From positions 1 through 52,305 of the IMG/VR virus record IMGVR_UViG_3300047481_000444: a stretch of 52,305 nt of DNA. One strand, given 5' to 3'. Source of the DNA: a virus. The notes under the pieces are model-generated. The model was given only the letters and a program-made list of their open reading frames with translations. It was not told where the DNA came from and did no database searches. Shown one piece after another: positions 307 through 32,166 of the stretch (its first letter is position 1; each line of letters starts with the position of its first letter). Position numbers and translations under genes: made by a program.

Positions 307-1754
307 GCAACGTCTCCAAATACTTTGATGACAACGAATCAGCACCTTGGCCTGAGCGTCGTTTGACCAGGGCAACATTGGAGCGCTATGGTGTCGTCAA
401 GAGCCAGAAGGATTGGTACTTTCCTTATCACGACAAAGACGGCACTCTTGTCGCTGCAAAGGTGAGGAACATTGCAGAGAAGAAGTTCCATGTTGAAGGT
501 GAGTTTGGTAAAGCTACGTTGTTTGGACAGCATCTTTACACCGCTGGTGGTAAGTATGTAACGGTTCTAGAGGGCGAAGCAGATTGCTTAGCGGCTTTCC
601 AAGCCACTGGCAGCAAGTGGCCTTGCGTCAGCATCCGCAGCGGTGCTTCCAACGCTCTGAAGGATTGCAGAGCAGCCTACGAATGGCTAGACAGCTTTGA
701 AAACATTGTCATCTGCTTTGACAATGATGAGCCTGGGAAGAAGGCAGCGAAGGAAGTGGCAGAACTCTTTGGCAACAAAGCCAAGGTGTTCAAGCACGAC
801 CCTGATATAAAGGACGCCTGTGACTACACCGCAGCCAACAAAGAGGCTGTGTTTGTACATAGGTGGTGGAGTGCTGAGCCCTACATTCCCGATGGCATCA
901 TTGCAGGCACAACGCTGTGGGATTTGGTGTCAACGCCACCAGAGCCTGCACAGTGTCTCTACCCTTGGTCTGGACTGAACTCTCTCACCAACGGTATCCG
1001 CACAGGTGAGCTTGTCACCATCACTGCTGGTAGTGGATTAGGTAAGTCACAGGTGATGCGTGAAATTGCTTGGCATGTGCTGTGCAACACAGATGACAAC
1101 CTTGGATTCTTGTTCATGGAAGAAGGCATCAGGAAGACAGGATTGTCTTTGATGTCGTTGGCAGTGAACAAGCCTTTGCATCTGCCAGACACTGTTGCTT
1201 CTGAAGAAGAACGCAAGGATGCTTTTGAACGAACCCTGGGCACGGGACGGATGTATCTGTTTGAGAATTTTGGAAGCACTTCTCTTGAGAACATTGTCAA
1301 CCGTGTGCGTTACATGTCAAAAGCATTGACATGCAAATATATCTTCCTTGATCACTTGTCCATCATTGTCAGTAGTCAAGAGAATGGCGATGAGAGAAAA
1401 GCTCTCGATGAAATCATGACGAAGCTGCGGATGTTGGTACAAGAAACAAACATTTCTTTGTTTGTGGTGTCACATCTGAAGAGGCCCGATGGCAAAGGCC
1501 ATGAGGACGGGGCTATGACGTCTCTGTCTCAGCTTCGTGGAAGCGCTGCCATTGCACAACTCAGCGACATGGTGATAGGTCTTGAGCGTAACGGACAAGC
1601 CGATGACCCAATGGAGCGCAACAAGACACGGCTGCGTGTGCTGAAGAATCGTTGGAATGGTGAGACAGGACCAGCGTGCTATCTGTTGTTCAACAAGCAG
1701 ACAGGCAGGATGCTGGAGGTTGATGACGTTGAGGAAGAAGAGGTGGTGCTGTGA
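153..1754 (+). CDS. T7 gp4-like DNA primase-helicase
   Basis: Bifunctional replisome protein that would make primers and unwind DNA at the phage fork. At the N-terminus is a zinc-binding module (C10, C13, C29, C32), then a Toprim primase core with an EGE motif (near residue 138) and a DND motif (near residue 190). The C-terminal half is a RecA/DnaB-type helicase with Walker A GSGLGKS near residues 292-299, Walker B FLDHLS and the conserved LSQLRGS segment. It ends in an acidic tail (DDVEEEEVV), as in T7 gp4, where the tail contacts polymerase. Length 533 aa is close to T7 gp4 (566 aa). The polymerase gene follows with a 4-base overlap. Confidence 0.95.
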   Translation: MAFIKTHVACGACGSSDARSINADGSSFCFSCNGFFPADNPITTTTKRKNVSNVSKYFDDNESAPWPERRLTRATLERYGVVKSQKDWYFPYHDKDGTLVAAKVRNIAEKKFHVEGEFGKATLFGQHLYTAGGKYVTVLEGEADCLAAFQATGSKWPCVSIRSGASNALKDCRAAYEWLDSFENIVICFDNDEPGKKAAKEVAELFGNKAKVFKHDPDIKDACDYTAANKEAVFVHRWWSAEPYIPDGIIAGTTLWDLVSTPPEPAQCLYPWSGLNSLTNGIRTGELVTITAGSGLGKSQVMREIAWHVLCNTDDNLGFLFMEEGIRKTGLSLMSLAVNKPLHLPDTVASEEERKDAFERTLGTGRMYLFENFGSTSLENIVNRVRYMSKALTCKYIFLDHLSIIVSSQENGDERKALDEIMTKLRMLVQETNISLFVVSHLKRPDGKGHEDGAMTSLSQLRGSAAIAQLSDMVIGLERNGQADDPMERNKTRLRVLKNRWNGETGPACYLLFNKQTGRMLEVDDVEEEEVVL

Positions 1755-3565
1755 TTTTCCTTGACGGTGAAACCAACCTAACCCATGACACCATCTGGCT
1801 TGTCATCACCAAGAAAGATGATGAGGTGAAGGCATGGAAGGACAGGACAGGTCTTCAACAATATCTTGATGGACATCAGGTTGTTGCTCACAATGGCATT
1901 GAGTTTGACTTTGATGTCCTAGCCAAGGTGTGGAAGGTGCATGTACCTGAGCATATGCAGGTAGATACGTTGGTGATGTCACGGCTGTACAACCCTGAGC
2001 TAGCTCCTCCTGAAGAAGATCCCAAGGCAGGGAAGCACAGCCTGCGTAGCTGGGGTATTCGCTTTGGCGACTACAAAGGAGACTTCGACGCTTTTGAGAC
2101 AGGCTGGTCTCAGGAGATGGAAGACTATTGCATTCAGGATGTGCTGCTGCTGGAGAAGCTCCATCAACACCTGACGCAAGAGATGAATGCTATGGGCTTC
2201 AGTGCCTACAGCATTGAACTAGAGCACAAGGTTGCTCACATCTGCAAAAGGATGATGGACAATGGTTATCCCATCGATGTCCCTAAAGCTCAGACTCTTC
2301 TGGCTACACTGTCAGGTAAGATGGCTGACATTGAGAATCGCCTTCAAGAAGTATTTCCACCAACCATAGAAGAGACAAAGACTCCTCAATTTTGGGAGGT
2401 TGTCACTGATGATTGGAAGGAGTACAAGGCAGACACCAAAGGGGCTCTACTGGAGTTGCTGAAGTCCTCTGGTGTACCTAAGCCATCGAAGGTGATACAG
2501 GAAGCGCTACCAGGGCCGATGAAGGTGAAGGTTATTCCATTCAATCCTGGCAGCAGGCAACAGATTGCAGAACGTCTTCAGAGCCTCGGTGTTGAGTTCA
2601 CTGAGACAACGGAGAAGGGCTCGATCAGCATCAACGAAGACATCCTCGGTGACATTGACAAGCCTGAGGCTAAGCTGCTCAATGAATACCTGATGCTGCA
2701 AAAGCGTGTGGCACAGGTGAGTAGCTGGCTTGAGAAGGAGAAGGATGGTGTTGTCTATGGACGCATCATTGCCTGTGGTGCTGTCACAGGCAGAGCTACA
2801 CACAACAGCCCTAATCTAGGGCAGGTGCCGAATGTGTCAGCGCCCTATGGCAATGAATGCAGAGAAGTGTGGCACCCAGGTCAGGGCAGGATGCAGGTTG
2901 GTGTTGACCTCAGCGGCATCGAGCTACGTTGTCTTGCTCACTATCTGAATGATGAAGAATGGACCAACACGCTGTTGACAGGTGATGTCCATTGGATGAA
3001 TGCACAGGCTTTTGGGCTGGTTCCAAAGGGCACAGTGAAGGACGACAGCGCTGAGCATAAGAAGGTGAGGAACATGACGAAGACGCTGACCTATGGCGTC
3101 TTGTATGGCGCTGGCGCTGAGAAGGCTGGCTCCATCGTTGGTGGTTCTTCTACCAAAGGTAAGAAGCTCATTGACAACTTCATCAACAACACACCCGGTC
3201 TGGCTGAGTTAAAGAAGAAGCTGTCAAAGTTCGTCAAGAAGGGACACCTACCTGGGCTTGATGGCAGGCGTGTGTGGGTACGCAGCGAGCACGCTGCTCT
3301 TAACACCCTGCTCCAATCCGCAGGTGCCATCATCGCCAAGCAGTGGCTTGTTGAGTCTGTGCAGCTATTGAAGGACAACAACATTGATGCTAAACTCATC
3401 GCCTTCGTTCACGACGAGACACAATGGAGTGTGTTGCCAGTGCAAGCTGAGCAGGCTGCTCGATTGGTGGAGCAGGCAGCAGCAAAGGCTGGTGAGGCTC
3501 TGAAGTTCCGTTGTAGGGTGGATGCTGAAGGCAAGGTTGGAAACAACTGGAAGGAATGTCACTAA
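1751..3565 (+). CDS. Family A DNA polymerase, T7 gp5-like
   Basis: Replicative DNA polymerase with 3'-5' proofreading. The exonuclease domain carries Exo I (LDGE, residues 4-7), Exo II (AHNGIEFD) and an Exo III tyrosine motif (YCIQD). The polymerase domain carries motif A (VDLSGIELR, near 385), motif B (KTLTYGVLYGAG, near 445) and motif C (VHDE, near 553), matching T7 polymerase in order and spelling. At 604 aa it is shorter than T7 gp5 (704 aa). It starts with GTG overlapping the helicase stop (GTGA), which indicates translational coupling. A structured leader follows it before the ssDNA-binding protein gene. Confidence 0.96.
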   Translation: MIFLDGETNLTHDTIWLVITKKDDEVKAWKDRTGLQQYLDGHQVVAHNGIEFDFDVLAKVWKVHVPEHMQVDTLVMSRLYNPELAPPEEDPKAGKHSLRSWGIRFGDYKGDFDAFETGWSQEMEDYCIQDVLLLEKLHQHLTQEMNAMGFSAYSIELEHKVAHICKRMMDNGYPIDVPKAQTLLATLSGKMADIENRLQEVFPPTIEETKTPQFWEVVTDDWKEYKADTKGALLELLKSSGVPKPSKVIQEALPGPMKVKVIPFNPGSRQQIAERLQSLGVEFTETTEKGSISINEDILGDIDKPEAKLLNEYLMLQKRVAQVSSWLEKEKDGVVYGRIIACGAVTGRATHNSPNLGQVPNVSAPYGNECREVWHPGQGRMQVGVDLSGIELRCLAHYLNDEEWTNTLLTGDVHWMNAQAFGLVPKGTVKDDSAEHKKVRNMTKTLTYGVLYGAGAEKAGSIVGGSSTKGKKLIDNFINNTPGLAELKKKLSKFVKKGHLPGLDGRRVWVRSEHAALNTLLQSAGAIIAKQWLVESVQLLKDNNIDAKLIAFVHDETQWSVLPVQAEQAARLVEQAAAKAGEALKFRCRVDAEGKVGNNWKECH

Positions 3566-3566
3566 C

Positions 3567-3598
3567 ACACGAAGCTACAGCGTGTTCAATTCTGTAGC
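3567..3598 (+). promoter_or_regulatory. Candidate H-type RNA pseudoknot upstream of the ssDNA-binding protein gene
   Basis: Stem 1 pairs ACACG (3567-3571) with CGTGT (3581-3585). Stem 2 pairs GCTACAG (3574-3580) with CTGTAGC (3592-3598). The stems interleave with loops of 2, 0 and 6 nt, the classic H-type geometry. It fills the gap between the polymerase stop (3565) and the ribosome binding site (about 3604). In T4 a pseudoknot at the same position lets gp32 bind its own mRNA and repress translation; the same role here is inference. Confidence 0.65.
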
Positions 3599-3611
3599 AC
3601 ATTGAAGGAAG

Positions 3612-4019
3612 ATGAAAATGGAAGCTGTGAAACTGAAGGCTACTCTGTTCTGGTGCCAACACAACAAGGTCAACGACATGTCTGGCAAGTACCAGATTGA
3701 CCTGTGTGAACTTTCTGATGCCGCTGTCGAGGCGCTGGAAGGTATTGGCATCGATGTCAAGCAGAAGGACGGGCTTGGTCGCTACATCACTTGCAAGTCC
3801 AACAAACCCATCAAGGTTGTTGACACTGACGGTGATGAGATTGATGAAGACATCGGCAATGGCAGCAAAGCCAAAGCCGTTGTGTCTTCCTACGAATGGA
3901 AGTACAAGAACAGGAAGGGTGTATCTCCTTCGTTGAAGAAGATTGTCGTCACTGAGCATGTCGAATTTGGTGGCGGCAGTGGAGGCAAGACGACGCTAAA
4001 CGACGACGAAGTGCTCTGA
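3612..4019 (+). CDS. gp2.5-like single-stranded DNA-binding protein
   Basis: Protects and organises ssDNA at the replication fork. Similarity to T7 gp2.5 is visible in the order YQIDL, then VVDTDGDEI, GNGSKAKAV, YEWKYKN.KGVS and HVEFGGG, and in a short acidic C-terminus (NDDEVL), the tail by which gp2.5 contacts polymerase and helicase. At 135 aa it is much shorter than T7 gp2.5 (232 aa), mainly in the N-terminal half and the tail. The GAAGGAAG ribosome binding site abuts the ATG at 3612; the in-frame ATG at 3618 has better spacing and may be the true start. Possibly autoregulated through the pseudoknot in its leader. Confidence 0.85.
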   Translation: MKMEAVKLKATLFWCQHNKVNDMSGKYQIDLCELSDAAVEALEGIGIDVKQKDGLGRYITCKSNKPIKVVDTDGDEIDEDIGNGSKAKAVVSSYEWKYKNRKGVSPSLKKIVVTEHVEFGGGSGGKTTLNDDEVL

Positions 4020-16673: not shown

Positions 16674-19600
16674 TTACCACTTGATGTTAGCCAGGAGACC
16701 ACCAACAGCAGTCCACATAGACGCTTTAGCTGCTGTAGAAGCTGCTGTTGTTTCCGACCTAGCGGAAATCTCCGACACAGCCAACTGCGTCACTCTGTCT
16801 GCATCCTTTTCAAAGCTGTTCCACATCATCTGAATCTGATCTCTAAACAACTGAGTCTCATTATTGTACTCAGCCAACGTCATCTGTTGCAGGTTCTGAG
16901 CATTGAGATAGTTGGCAGCGTTGGTGGCAGCAGTGTCAGCAGTGGATACATCCCTACGCCACTGAGCATTGCTCTGATCAATGACAAGCCTCTGTGTTGC
17001 ATTGAACTGCTGTCTAGCATTGGTCTGCTCAGCATTGAACTTCGACACAGCATTGGCCTGATCAGTGTTGAATTGGTCAATGGCATTCTTCTGTGAAGCA
17101 TTGAACTGGCTCACCTGTGTTGACAACGACACCATGAACTGATCCACCTGATTCTGGCTGGTGGCATTGAACTGCTTCATTGCATTCTCAGCAGCAGCAT
17201 CAGACAACAGAGCCTGTGAAATCTGCTGGCCCTTGAACAACGTAGCCTGCTGCTCTCTATCGAGATTAGCCATGTCCATCGACAGGAAGTTCTGTGCTGT
17301 CATCACAGCAGCCTGCTGACGGTTGTTCAGGTTAGCCATGTCCATTGCAGCAAACGTAGCTGCATTAGCCAACACAGATGCCTGCTCATTGTTCAAATCA
17401 GCAAGGTTGATCTGCTGAATAAACTGAGCATTGGCAAGAGCATTCTGCTGATCTGCTGTGAAGTTGACATTGGCAATTTCAGCAACACGGGCAGCATTGG
17501 TGATGTTAACCTGCTGCTTATTCGTCAACTCCTGTCCCTTCAACGCTGCTTCAATTTGAGCATTAGCCAATGCTGTCTGTTGCTTGTTAGACAGATTAGC
17601 CATCTCCACCTGAAGAGAGTTGGTGGTGTTGAACAGACGAGTCTGCTGCTCATTAGTGAGATTGATGTTGCGCTCTTGCAGCACATTGCTAACATTGAAC
17701 AACGCTGTCTGCTGCTCATTCGACAACACCTGCCCTGTCAATGCAGCCCTGGCTTGGAAGTCAGAGATGAAGGCTTGTTGCTTGTTAGAGGCTTCAATGC
17801 CAGCAGCTTCAAAGTTTTGTGTGCTCTGAAGCATTGCCATCTGCTGTTCATTGGTGAGTTCTTGACCAGTGACAGCGGCTCTGACTTGCAGATTAGCCAG
17901 CGCTGTTTGCTGGCGTGCAGACAGGTTGGTGAACTCCACTTGCAGGTTCTCAGAAGAACGCTGCAACACAGCCTGCTGAGCATTGCTCAGGTTGATGTTG
18001 TTCACTTCAGCAAAGCGAGCAGCATTGGTCAGGGCTGTCTGTGTCTTGACATCGAGGTTCTTTTCAGCAACAGCGGCTTTGATGTTGGCGTTTGCCAGAA
18101 CAACAGATTGCAGATTAGACAAGCTAGCTGATTGCAGAGCAAAGGCATTGGTGCTGTTCTGAAGCGCTGCTGTCTGCCTATTGTTCAGATTCTCCAGTTC
18201 AATCTTCTGAGAAGCAGCAGCATTTGCCAGAGACACTGCCTGTCTATTGCTGAGGTTCTGAAGACCCATAGTTGCAAAGGTTTCAGCGTCCTTTGCAGCA
18301 ATGGGCACAGCAGCTTCCATAGCAGCCTGCACAATGGCAGCACCTGCCATAGAGCTACCACCAAGCCCTCTAGCAGCCATTGCAGCATTGGCCTGTCTAA
18401 TGGCTCCAGCAGCCCATGCAGGCGTGCCATCATTGAACTGAGACATCAGCTTCTCAAGCTGACCTGCAACAGTGGAAGCAGCTTCAACAGTGCCTGTCTG
18501 AGCCTCTGCCAGAGCTTGGCTGAAGCTGCCTTGCTGAGCCACCATCTTCGCTTCTTGATTGAGCTTGTCCATTGTGGCTGCAACAGCCTGCACAGGCTCA
18601 GTGATTTGAAGGCTCTGCTTAGAGACATCAACAAGCTCTTCCTGAGCAATAGCGCGTTGTTGACCAACAGCAGTGGAAGAGGCTGTGGTTTGATCTGTGG
18701 TGGCTGAAGGAATCTCAGAAGCCTTAGCCGCATCCATCACCTTAGGAGCACTCATTGCTGCCGACTTAGCCTCAGGCAAGGTGTAGTTGGTGGCAGCAGT
18801 GGCTTCGGGTGTACCAGAAAGTTGAGCAGCATCTGTCTTGAAATCTCTGCCTGTTGTCTCTGCTGTAGCCTTTGTAACACCACCAACATCAGCAACAGTG
18901 GCGGCTTTGGCTTCCTGCTCTGGTGTCATCTGCAAAGGCGTCGGTGCTGTCACTTGAGCAGCATCAGGGGCTTCAGCAGTGCGGGCAATGGCATCAGGAG
19001 AAACATAGCCCTGTTGAGCCTTTACCTGAGCTTGCTCGGACACAGTGCCAGCAGCAGGGGTAACACCTTCCATAGCTGTTTGAATGCCTGGAGCAGCCGT
19101 TGTAGCCTCTGCTGTCTTCGCTGTAATCTGCGTAGGCTGCACAGCCTGGGCTGCTGTTCCTGTCTTTGTTGTACGCGCTGTAGCAGCAGTGCCTGCACCA
19201 CCAACACCAGCAATGCTTTGCTCAGGTGTGATGGGTGTTGCAACAGGCGTAATAGACGCAGCAGTACCGGGCTTGGGAACACCTACCCTGCCTAGTTCTT
19301 CTTCAAAGGTGACACCACCTCCTCCTGCAACTGTCCCCGGAGGAGGAGGCGCAGGAGATGTTACAGGAGCAGGCGCTGGTGCCGGAGCAGGAGCTGGCGT
19401 TGGAGCTGGTGCCGGTGTCGCCGCTGGTGCTGGTGCCGGTGTCGGCGCTGGTGCCGGTGTCGGCGCTGGTGCCGGTGTCGGCGCTGGTGCCGGTGTCGGC
19501 GCTGGTGCCGGTGTCGCCGCTGGTGCTGGTGCCGGTGTCGGCGCTGGTGCCGGTGTCGGCGCTGGTGCCGGTGTCGGCGCTGGTGCCGGTGCTGCAATAG

Positions 19601-30103: not shown

Positions 30104-31437
30104 TTAGGCGACGTTGTACTTACAAGTCGTGATAGCTTCGCTCTTAAGAATTTTTCTTCCATAGAGATGCATACCACGAACGATGTCAGCAAAGCTGTCC
30201 GGATCACGATAGGTTTCCACCTTGTTGATCTGCTCAGCCGAGGCAACAGCGCTGTCATGACCAGCAACGATGACACCGTAGTTGGTGTTCTGGTTAGCCG
30301 TACCAACAGTGCCGGGACCAGTACCAACCTTGGGCAGGTTGTTGCTGACATAGACACGGAAGCCGTGCAGGTTCTTCACCACAAGACCGTTCTGAAGACC
30401 AGAGCCACCGAAGTCTGCATTCAGAAGACGCGAATCTTCGTCCTTCAGCATTTCAATGAACACCGGATCAACAACAAGCCAACGACCCGTCGTATCCGCG
30501 TTCTGAGTATCCAGCAGACGCGACATACGAGCAACAATCATCAGCGGCGACACAGTGGCCGTCGGAAGTGCCGTAGCACCCGGCAGACGCGGCGCAACAG
30601 GAATCGAATGGTCACCAGCACTAGCAGTGGTGATGTTGCCAAACGAACTCTTGATGAGCTTCATCGAGGTCAGCAGTTCGTCCGAACCAGCAGCCGAGTT
30701 AGCCTTCGTACCCGGGAAGGTAGTGCGGGCAGTGTCAGCATTGGTGTGCAGAGCAGACTGCTCAAAGCCAGACAGGTAGCCGAGGAGTCTTGGTCGAAGT
30801 TGTCGCGCAGACGGTAAGCAGCACGATCAGAGGCCAACGAGAGCCAATTGATGTGCGACTGAGCGGCTTCGATGTCGTCCAATTTGCATTATGTTCAGCA
30901 AGGGTCGTTAATCCTTGCCCGTCTTTTCAGACCGCTGCATCTTTCGATGCAGAGCAGACTATATCATCACCCTATATTCTAGGGGCTGGGCGCTTCCACT
31001 CACTTGAGTGTACGGATTGCTCCTAGTCGTTGAACCTTCCTGATTTCTCAGGCTTGGCTGCTGATTGCCTTAGCTTGTTAGCGTTAGGTTTTCCAGCAAT
31101 TCACCCAGTTCTTTAGATGGGATTGCTCCCAAATGCGTCCAAATCAGTTAAACGCGAAGTAATTGGCCTTATCGACAACCAGCGTAAAGTCGCTGTCCTC
31201 AAGGTCTTGTGCCGTGATCTGCGTGCCACGCGCATATTGACGGACACTGACCTCGGGCTCCAACACGATTTTCACACTGTCCCCCATCGAAGCAATCTCA
31301 CCGAAGTAGTCACTGTTGGTGATAGCCTGAGCGACAGACGCCTTTCTGAAGGCCAGTTGGACCTTCTTGGAATAGATAATGGGACTCCAGTTCCCATTGG
31401 GCAAATTCCCGTACCCTGAAGCACTTGCAAACGCCAT
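30104..31437 (-). CDS. Major capsid protein, split by a group I intron and carrying a frameshift
   Basis: Exon 1 is 31,151-31,437 (287 nt) and exon 2 is 30,104-30,886 (783 nt). Spliced, the junction reads TT|C AAA TTG, giving FAFKLDDIE, which restores the capsid sequence. Exon 2 shifts frame near 30,790 (about residue 128, after RLRDNFDQ): one extra base, or a -1 shift, restores LLGYLSGFEQSAL and the remainder. With that correction the product is 356 aa, a normal capsid size. Landmarks include RKASVAQAITNSDYFGEI, SHINWLSLASDRAAYRL and GFRVYVSNNLP. AAAGGAG precedes the ATG at 31,437. The scaffold gene lies upstream and a strong terminator follows. Confidence 0.88.
30887..31150 (-). ncRNA. Group I self-splicing intron in the major capsid gene (264 nt, no ORF)
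   Basis: Exon 1 ends GCGTT, which pairs with the internal guide GACGC to form P1 with the required U-G pair at the splice site. Exon 2 starts CAAAT, which pairs with the adjacent ATTTG to form P10; the intron ends in G. Core elements are recognisable in order: P-like AATTGCTGGAAAACC, Q-like AATCAGCAGCCAAGC, R-like GTTCAACGACTAG and S-like ATGATATAGTCTG, with GACTA/TAGTC as P7. Peripheral hairpins include CTGCATC-GAAA-GATGCAG with a GNRA loop. The compact size and empty loops leave no room for an endonuclease gene. Confidence 0.9.
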
Positions 31438-31541: not shown

Positions 31542-32081
31542 CTAAGTCGATAGGGTGTACTTATCCTGATTATTTAGCGCAACTACGTGACAAAGATGTA
31601 TAAACAAAGATTCTTCTCTGTGCATCTTCATCTCGTTTACTGCTCTACAAACTAACTGAGTATTCTCTTTAGTGTAGCCTATAGAGCTATCGATACGGTC
31701 TATGCTGATAGTGTTGAACTGGTTGGCTTCTAATGTTAGCGGCAGTTTTGTGTACACGCACAAACCGTTTTGGTTTTCCCACAGAGATTTAACGTGTTGA
31801 CAATCTATGGAAAAATCAAAAGGTCTTCTCTTTTTTGCTGAAGACACTATCTCTCTAATTCTAGAGTCAATGTTTAGATGAATGCTTTTACCCCATGTCT
31901 GTCTGTACGCTCTCATGTACTGACGATGCTGTTCTCTATTAGCATCTAAATAAATTTTCTTCTGTGCATTCAAACAAGGTTTGCAAATGACTCTGTAACC
32001 TGTCCTATTTTGTTTGCTCTTTACAAAAGCAGTGATGTCTTTTTCTTCGCCACACTTGCGGCATACCTTTGTTTCTTCCAT
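31542..32081 (-). CDS. HNH endonuclease, probable free-standing homing enzyme (179 aa)
   Basis: Starts MEETKVCRKCGEEKDITAF (GGAGAAGAT before the ATG at 32,081), giving a zinc-knuckle pair (CRKC and CKPC). The C-terminal HNH domain reads LCVYTKLPL...ISIDRIDSS.GYTKENTQLVC..VNEMK, the common phage HNH layout. It sits in the leader between scaffold and capsid genes and is unrelated in function to virion assembly. Because the capsid intron lacks an ORF, this enzyme is a candidate for mobilising that intron or itself; inference. Confidence 0.85.
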   Translation of the reverse strand: MEETKVCRKCGEEKDITAFVKSKQNRTGYRVICKPCLNAQKKIYLDANREQHRQYMRAYRQTWGKSIHLNIDSRIREIVSSAKKRRPFDFSIDCQHVKSLWENQNGLCVYTKLPLTLEANQFNTISIDRIDSSIGYTKENTQLVCRAVNEMKMHREESLFIHLCHVVALNNQDKYTLST

Positions 32082-32166
32082 ATCTTCTCCGCTTAGAAAA
32101 CGGGCTAGTCTATGAAGCGGCACAGACAGGGGAGCTACCCTTTTCGCCCTAGAAAACTCAGGCGCT

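Follow-up and report, generated by a model that had tools for sequence, protein, structure and literature searches.

We find that the leader of the ssb gene in the window (the whole stretch of DNA that was analysed, an entire IMG/VR virus record of 52,305 bases) holds a 32-nt H-type pseudoknot. Judging from covariation, with the structure fixed beforehand, this pseudoknot is almost certainly a real control element. Our analysis suggests that it is best explained as a cis-acting operator through which the single-stranded DNA-binding protein (SSB) represses its own translation; we regard this explanation as probable, but well short of certain. The structured RNA is absent from Rfam and present in many environmental phage contigs. 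A literature search, mainly of the open literature, found no prior report of the ssb-leader pseudoknot.

The ssb leader and its gene

The genes at this locus run in the order helicase-primase, family A DNA polymerase, ssb, a small open reading frame (ORF) and a 5'-3' exonuclease. The 52 nt between the polymerase stop and the ssb ATG at 3618 include the pseudoknot, a 7-nt spacer and the Shine-Dalgarno sequence AAGGA (Table 1). AAGGA stands 7 nt from this ATG and 1 nt from the ATG at 3612. Because the former spacing is far more suitable, the ssb start is probably 3618. The original prediction had placed two interleaved stems of 5 and 7 bp, with loops of 2, 0 and 6 nt, at positions 3567-3598 of the ssb leader, ahead of the ribosome binding site. 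We reproduced all of these coordinates and sizes, and the location upstream of AAGGA was borne out.

Table 1. Features of the ssb locus in the window (S1, S2: stems; L1-L3: loops)
Feature	Positions	Strand	Remarks
Family A DNA polymerase gene, upstream of ssb	1751-3565	+	stop TAA 3563-3565, 1 nt before S1
S1 5' strand, ACACG	3567-3571	+	two-sided compensatory change in 4 of 5 S1 pairs
L1, AA	3572-3573	+	conserved in nearly all relatives
S2 5' strand, GCUACAG	3574-3580	+	two-sided compensatory change in 6 of 7 S2 pairs
S1 3' strand, CGUGU	3581-3585	+	L2 is 0 nt
L3, UCAAUU	3586-3591	+	AAUU part conserved in most relatives
S2 3' strand, CUGUAGC	3592-3598	+	
Short spacer from pseudoknot to Shine-Dalgarno, ACAUUGA	3599-3605	+	
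Shine-Dalgarno, AAGGA	3606-3610	+	outside both pseudoknot stems
ssb gene, gp2.5/Enc34-type ssDNA-binding protein	3618-4019	+	133 aa, acidic C-terminus; alternative start ATG 3612

We scanned the 52-kb window for strictly Watson-Crick pseudoknots (S1 of 5 bp, S2 of 7 bp, L1 of 1-3 nt, L2 of 0-1 nt and L3 of 3-9 nt). The leader pseudoknot was the sole match on the plus strand, and dinucleotide shuffles gave a mean of 0.196 matches per strand. With looser limits, we found that 0.05% of 2,000 dinucleotide shuffles equalled the leader's pseudoknot score (p = 0.0005); under these limits, 1% of 80-nt segments taken arbitrarily from the window reach a score of 30. Nested folding of the leader predicted the S2 hairpin alone (z = +1.2), and such folding is uninformative as a test of a pseudoknot. 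An Rfam 15 covariance-model search at the locus, at the gathering cut-off and up to E<=5, returned chance matches only. The single-sequence evidence is thus moderate, and it is the comparison with relatives that decides.

At the same place, the strict scan also gave a match on the minus strand, which in plus-strand terms pairs UUCAAU (3585-3590) with AUUGAA (3601-3606). This alternative would be a competitor of S1 and would extend into the Shine-Dalgarno sequence. We rejected it because it occurs in the window, L001 and L002 only, with -1.3 kcal/mol against -3.9 for S1, and is not conserved.

The original prediction had also assigned the protein to the T7 gp2.5 type, and this assignment held. 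Residues 58-125 match the profile of phrog_112 (PHROG 112, Gp2.5-like; E 1e-11), while the match to Pfam Enc34_ssDNA-bd reaches an E-value of only 0.02, below the family cut-off. A search of PDB sequences with the SSB profile gave no match, and the fold search alone succeeded: for the AlphaFold (AF2) model (pLDDT 85), the best PDB matches in Foldseek were the Enc34 SSB (5odj, E 4.7e-7) and T7 gp2.5 (1je5, E 1.7e-6). The acidic tail of the family closes with DD(D)E(V/A/I)L; in the window's SSB it reads DDEVL. The model therefore indicates that this SSB has the OB fold of Enc34 and T7 gp2.5 with an acidic C-terminal tail. T7 gp2.5 is not known to repress translation or to bind in a strongly cooperative manner, a point against autogenous repression.

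Elsewhere in the window, we observed a group I intron (RF00028, 103.8 bits) at 30935-31159 on the minus strand. It lies downstream of an HNH/endonuclease-like ORF (31542-32123) and adjoins the apparent major capsid gene region. There is also a GC-rich tandem repeat array at 19364-19594 with 18/36-nt units, GCTGGTGCCGGTGTCGGC, which possibly encodes an Ala/Gly-rich stretch.

Conservation and distribution among relatives

Relatives were gathered through the SSB protein rather than through the RNA, in seven scans (with the window, L015, L112, L089, L084, L373 and L348 as queries). One extra scan by DNA pattern added almost no new loci. The 515 usable loci, many of them the same contigs fetched again, yielded 146 distinct leaders, nearly all obtained via the protein. 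The same architecture is present near the ribosome binding site in 43 of these 146 leaders, which carry 17 distinct pseudoknot sequences. The length of the core is exactly 32 nt in almost all versions (examples in Table 2). L1 is AA in nearly all of them, and most have an L3 with AAUU at its end; L015 (a shorter L3 and a 4-bp S1), L084 (AC; UCAAUC) and L089 (UUCAUU) deviate.

Table 2. Versions of the ssb-leader pseudoknot
Leader	S1 5'	L1	S2 5'	S1 3'	L3	S2 3'
Window	ACACG	AA	GCUACAG	CGUGU	UCAAUU	CUGUAGC
L089	CCACG	AA	GCCGCAC	CGUGG	UUCAUU	GUGCGGC
L113	UCAGG	AA	GCCACUG	CCUGA	UCAAUU	CAGUGGC
L348	CCAGU	AA	GUCUCUC	GCUGG	UAAAUU	GAGAGAC
L363	GUAGG	AA	GCUGACC	CCUAC	UGAAUU	GGUCAGC

The original prediction had named covarying stems in related phages as a check, and the pseudoknot stood up to it. 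The structure was set from the window alone, before any relative was inspected. In an alignment of 13 sequences from the first scans (A1), 98.1% of cells are paired, two-sided changes occur in 8 of 12 pairs, and none of 500 shuffles matches the observed values on four of five measures. An alignment of 14 gap-free sequences made after the later scans (A3) has 98.8% of cells paired (72.5% when shuffled), two-sided changes in 10 of 12 pairs, 40 two-sided cells (10.7 when shuffled) and a score of 0.709 (0.196 when shuffled). Here, none of 500 shuffles reaches the observed covariation on any of the five measures. Sliding the partner strands, a control that retains relatedness, left 24-42% of cells paired. 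For pairs 2, 3, 4, 7, 10 and 11, in which all states differ on both sides, at least 13 changes are required on the SSB tree. Alignment A3 also holds 7 G-U and 2 A-C cells, which modestly favour the mRNA strand over a DNA structure, a caveat raised for the STAXI motif.

The pseudoknot is linked to ssb whatever the upstream gene. A search for the strict form on both strands of the fetched sequences (4.57 Mb, a redundant set collected around ssb) gave matches in ssb leaders only. Similarly, the DNA-pattern scan of IMG/VR found pseudoknots before ssb only, its other matches showing no pairing by eye. The gene upstream of ssb is a family A polymerase in 10 of the 43 leaders and a different polymerase in 32. 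The latter belongs to PHROG 1252, has no Pfam family A match and carries a DVSSMYPNIA motif, from which alone we call it family B-like. From the pseudoknot's end to the AUG, the distance is 17-23 nt in the 43 leaders (19 in the window, 17 in L001). In L112 and L113 the 5' half of the pseudoknot, including S1, lies inside the polymerase gene, and in L004, L010 and their kin the pseudoknot is kept although about 85 nt are inserted between it and the polymerase.

Two side observations concern these loci. The apparent stems of the insert (L004 2870-2954, L010 2869-2952) differ in a compensatory manner (CUCGGA..UCCGGG and CUCGGA..UCUGAG), and an Rfam search with the insert gave no match. In L088, L096 and L113, the PHROG 1252 polymerase stands in the place that the family A polymerase has in the window, and the replication modules are otherwise alike (ssb, exonuclease and a dATP/dGTP diphosphohydrolase-like gene).

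On the SSB tree, other leader types separate the carriers of the pseudoknot form into at least three groups; there are five changes, four of them forced by starred branches. L099, a close relative, has lost the pseudoknot. This distribution could reflect loss of the pseudoknot, its replacement by another structure or leader exchange. All carriers are uncultivated IMG/VR contigs. MW202701, the sole annotated phage with a close SSB, has another leader type, and the host search in genome contigs found no relative.

The leaders designated types B-E are near chance when taken singly; by eye, S2 of type B seems to covary and its S1 does not. A second leader type (L008, L081, L181, L182, L189 and L222) has the form AGCGG N4 S2(6 bp) C CCGUU AGC S2'. 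Its S2 seems to covary (GGUGGC/GCCACU, GGUAGC/GCUACC, GACAAC/GUUGUU), and this leader may be another pseudoknot. L114 and its copies have a different H-type candidate, roughly 20 nt ahead of the ssb AUG, which reads ACGUU AAUU AGGCU AACGU CAU AGCCU; for this leader alone, p is about 0.02. The gap from polymerase to ssb holds a sigma70-like promoter in the L266-L303 leaders, which also have a small hairpin (ACCA..UGGU or AGCA..UGCU) whose loop would contain the Shine-Dalgarno sequence.

Possible functions of the pseudoknot

Under autogenous repression, SSB in excess of its ssDNA ligand would bind the pseudoknot together with a short purine-rich single strand on its 3' side. The bound protein would then cover the Shine-Dalgarno sequence and the AUG, and translation of ssb would stop. 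In initiation complexes, the position of the pseudoknot's 3' end, about 20 nt before the start codon, is at the upstream edge of the region bound by the 30S subunit. Three steps of this scheme are inferences: SSB as the ligand, repression of translation upon its binding, and exclusion of the 30S subunit.

The Shine-Dalgarno sequence stays free of the fold and so cannot be masked by it; any action of the structure must depend on a bound factor or be steric. The gene's own product is the obvious candidate ligand, since gp32 of T4 and of RB69 represses its own translation through a leader pseudoknot (PMC535899, PMC3014915). However, repression in T4 needs UUAAA/UAAA repeats and a weakly structured stretch of >40 nt 3' of the pseudoknot (PMC535899); both are missing here, which counts against autogenous repression. 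SSBs up to ~70% identical to that of the window have other leader structures, and this would be unexpected if the protein depended strictly on one RNA. In the same scan, the 80 nt ahead of T7 gene 2.5 contained no H-type pseudoknot and the ssb leaders of HTVC104P and CRP-7 no such pseudoknot, so proteins of this SSB fold do not generally require the element.

The pseudoknot might also stabilise a 5' end, a role that is compatible with repression rather than exclusive of it, and to which we assign a low but appreciable probability. It would cap the ssb mRNA and so offer RppH/RNase E no unpaired 5' strand, or block nucleases coming from the polymerase message, with the consequence that more ssb than polymerase would be produced. 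A sigma70-like promoter (TTGAC, 17-18 nt, TATAAT or TACAAT) ends 7-9 nt before S1 in 25 of the 43 leaders; about 1% of shuffles have a promoter at such spacing. These 25 leaders represent a few lineages and are not independent, belonging mostly to the group with the second polymerase, plus L084. From the spacing, transcripts would start at S1 or within about 2 nt of it, if these promoters are used. The T4 gene 32 mRNA also carries a pseudoknot at its 5' end and is unusually stable (PMC3014915). On the other hand, no sigma70-like promoter was seen before S1 in the window or its nearest kin (the polA group), so ssb is probably read from upstream in the window, and S1 of L112/L113 is inside the polymerase gene. 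Moreover, a stabiliser has no need for AA and AAUU loops or for a fixed distance of 17-23 nt to the AUG.

We consider it rather unlikely that the pseudoknot enhances translation or acts as a spacer with no repressor involved, whether by shielding the ribosome binding site from upstream pairing or as a standby or S1 site. The exposed Shine-Dalgarno sequence and AUG and the nearly constant distance to the AUG are in keeping with such a role, but any hairpin would insulate, and the strict 32-nt geometry and conserved loop letters would be left unexplained.

Those loop letters, in L1 and L3, could instead make a site for some other ligand. Compact H-type pseudoknots such as preQ1-I form ligand sites, and the leader could respond, as an operator or riboswitch, to another protein of phage or host or to a small molecule, e.g., a nucleotide. 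This is slightly less plausible still, given that the element is tied to ssb only, that no Rfam riboswitch matches at E<=5 and that the Shine-Dalgarno sequence is not sequestered.

In the window a single nucleotide separates the polymerase TAA from the pseudoknot, as might befit a stimulator of frameshifting or stop readthrough for the polymerase gene. However, relatives have anything from 34 to >100 nt separating the stop of the polymerase gene from the start of ssb, the window and its close relative L003 differ in the spacing of stop and S1, no slippery heptamer was seen before S1, and in many relatives the polymerase is of another family. We therefore reject this highly improbable explanation, as the pseudoknot persists without the same stop where the upstream gene is a different one. 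Chance pairing without function, for which 0.2 matches are expected per strand of the window, is equally improbable and is refuted by the covariation, which none of 500 shuffles equals on any of five measures.

Autogenous repression thus remains our preferred explanation. As a broader and more tentative reading, to which we give somewhat less than even confidence, phages with gp2.5/Enc34 SSBs might possess their own family of pseudoknot operators, with a geometry near that of T4, controlling ssb translation. Such operators would have arisen at least twice or would predate the split between SSB types, and related leaders would swap the operator for types B-E, as parts of an evolving system.

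Comparison with known systems

The STAXI motif (RF01728) also consists of pseudoknots near ssb-type genes. However, it has 2-3 tandem pseudoknots with frequent UUCG loops and occurs in Enterobacteriales (PMC2864571), whereas the window has a single copy, no UUCG and no RF01728 match in the Rfam search. The gene 5 protein of M13, as cited in PMC535899, is a phage SSB that acts as an mRNA-specific repressor of gene II. It differs in acting on the message of another gene, and the citing account in PMC535899 describes no such pseudoknot operator. In E. coli rpsO (S15), mentioned in PMC3014915, a pseudoknot likewise forms part of an autogenous translational operator, but the gene encodes a ribosomal protein, and repressor and structure are unrelated. 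With T7 gene 2.5, the likeness is in the protein, which has the same fold as the window's SSB.

The closest likeness is to gene 32 of T4, T2 and RB69. Both sides have an H-type pseudoknot in a phage ssb leader with a 7-bp S2, an L2 of 0 nt, an L1 of 1-2 nt, an L3 of 5-6 nt and a geometry that would permit stacked stems. As a control, the same scanner recovered the T4 leader as UGCC A GCUAUGA GGUA AAGUG UCAUAGC, ending 39 nt before the AUG. S2 opens with GCUA..UAGC in both T4 and the window. The original prediction had the pseudoknot at the same place as in T4. The geometry is nearly alike and both pseudoknots lie in an ssb leader, but the match of place is loose, since the T4 pseudoknot ends at 39 nt where those of the window's family end 17-23 nt before the AUG, and that family has no UUAAA/UAAA repeats. 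In the same scan, S1 is mostly 5-6 bp in the ssb-leader family as against 4 in T4. The protein is of the gp2.5/Enc34 type (phrog_112, Foldseek) and not of the gp32 family.

Other features recur on both sides. The 5' part of the pseudoknot may overlap the upstream gene, which is segG in T4 (PMC535899) and the polymerase in L112/L113. A position at or near the mRNA 5' end, which the T4 pseudoknot has, is predicted from promoter spacing for 25 of the 43 ssb leaders; the window shows no such promoter. Some relatives have no pseudoknot, as does RB49 among T4-like phages, and in RB69 the sequence diverges while the structure is kept.

How gp32 of T4 distinguishes its own message from other nucleic acids has been stated to be unclear, and whether other SSB proteins act like gp32 not to be known (PMC535899). 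A pseudoknot family before a different type of SSB, supported by covariation, offers a further natural system besides gene 32 in which to test this, with many sequence variants and with loop letters that are conserved. From it one could learn whether an ssDNA binder that is blind to sequence readily takes on a pseudoknot as its specific target in RNA.
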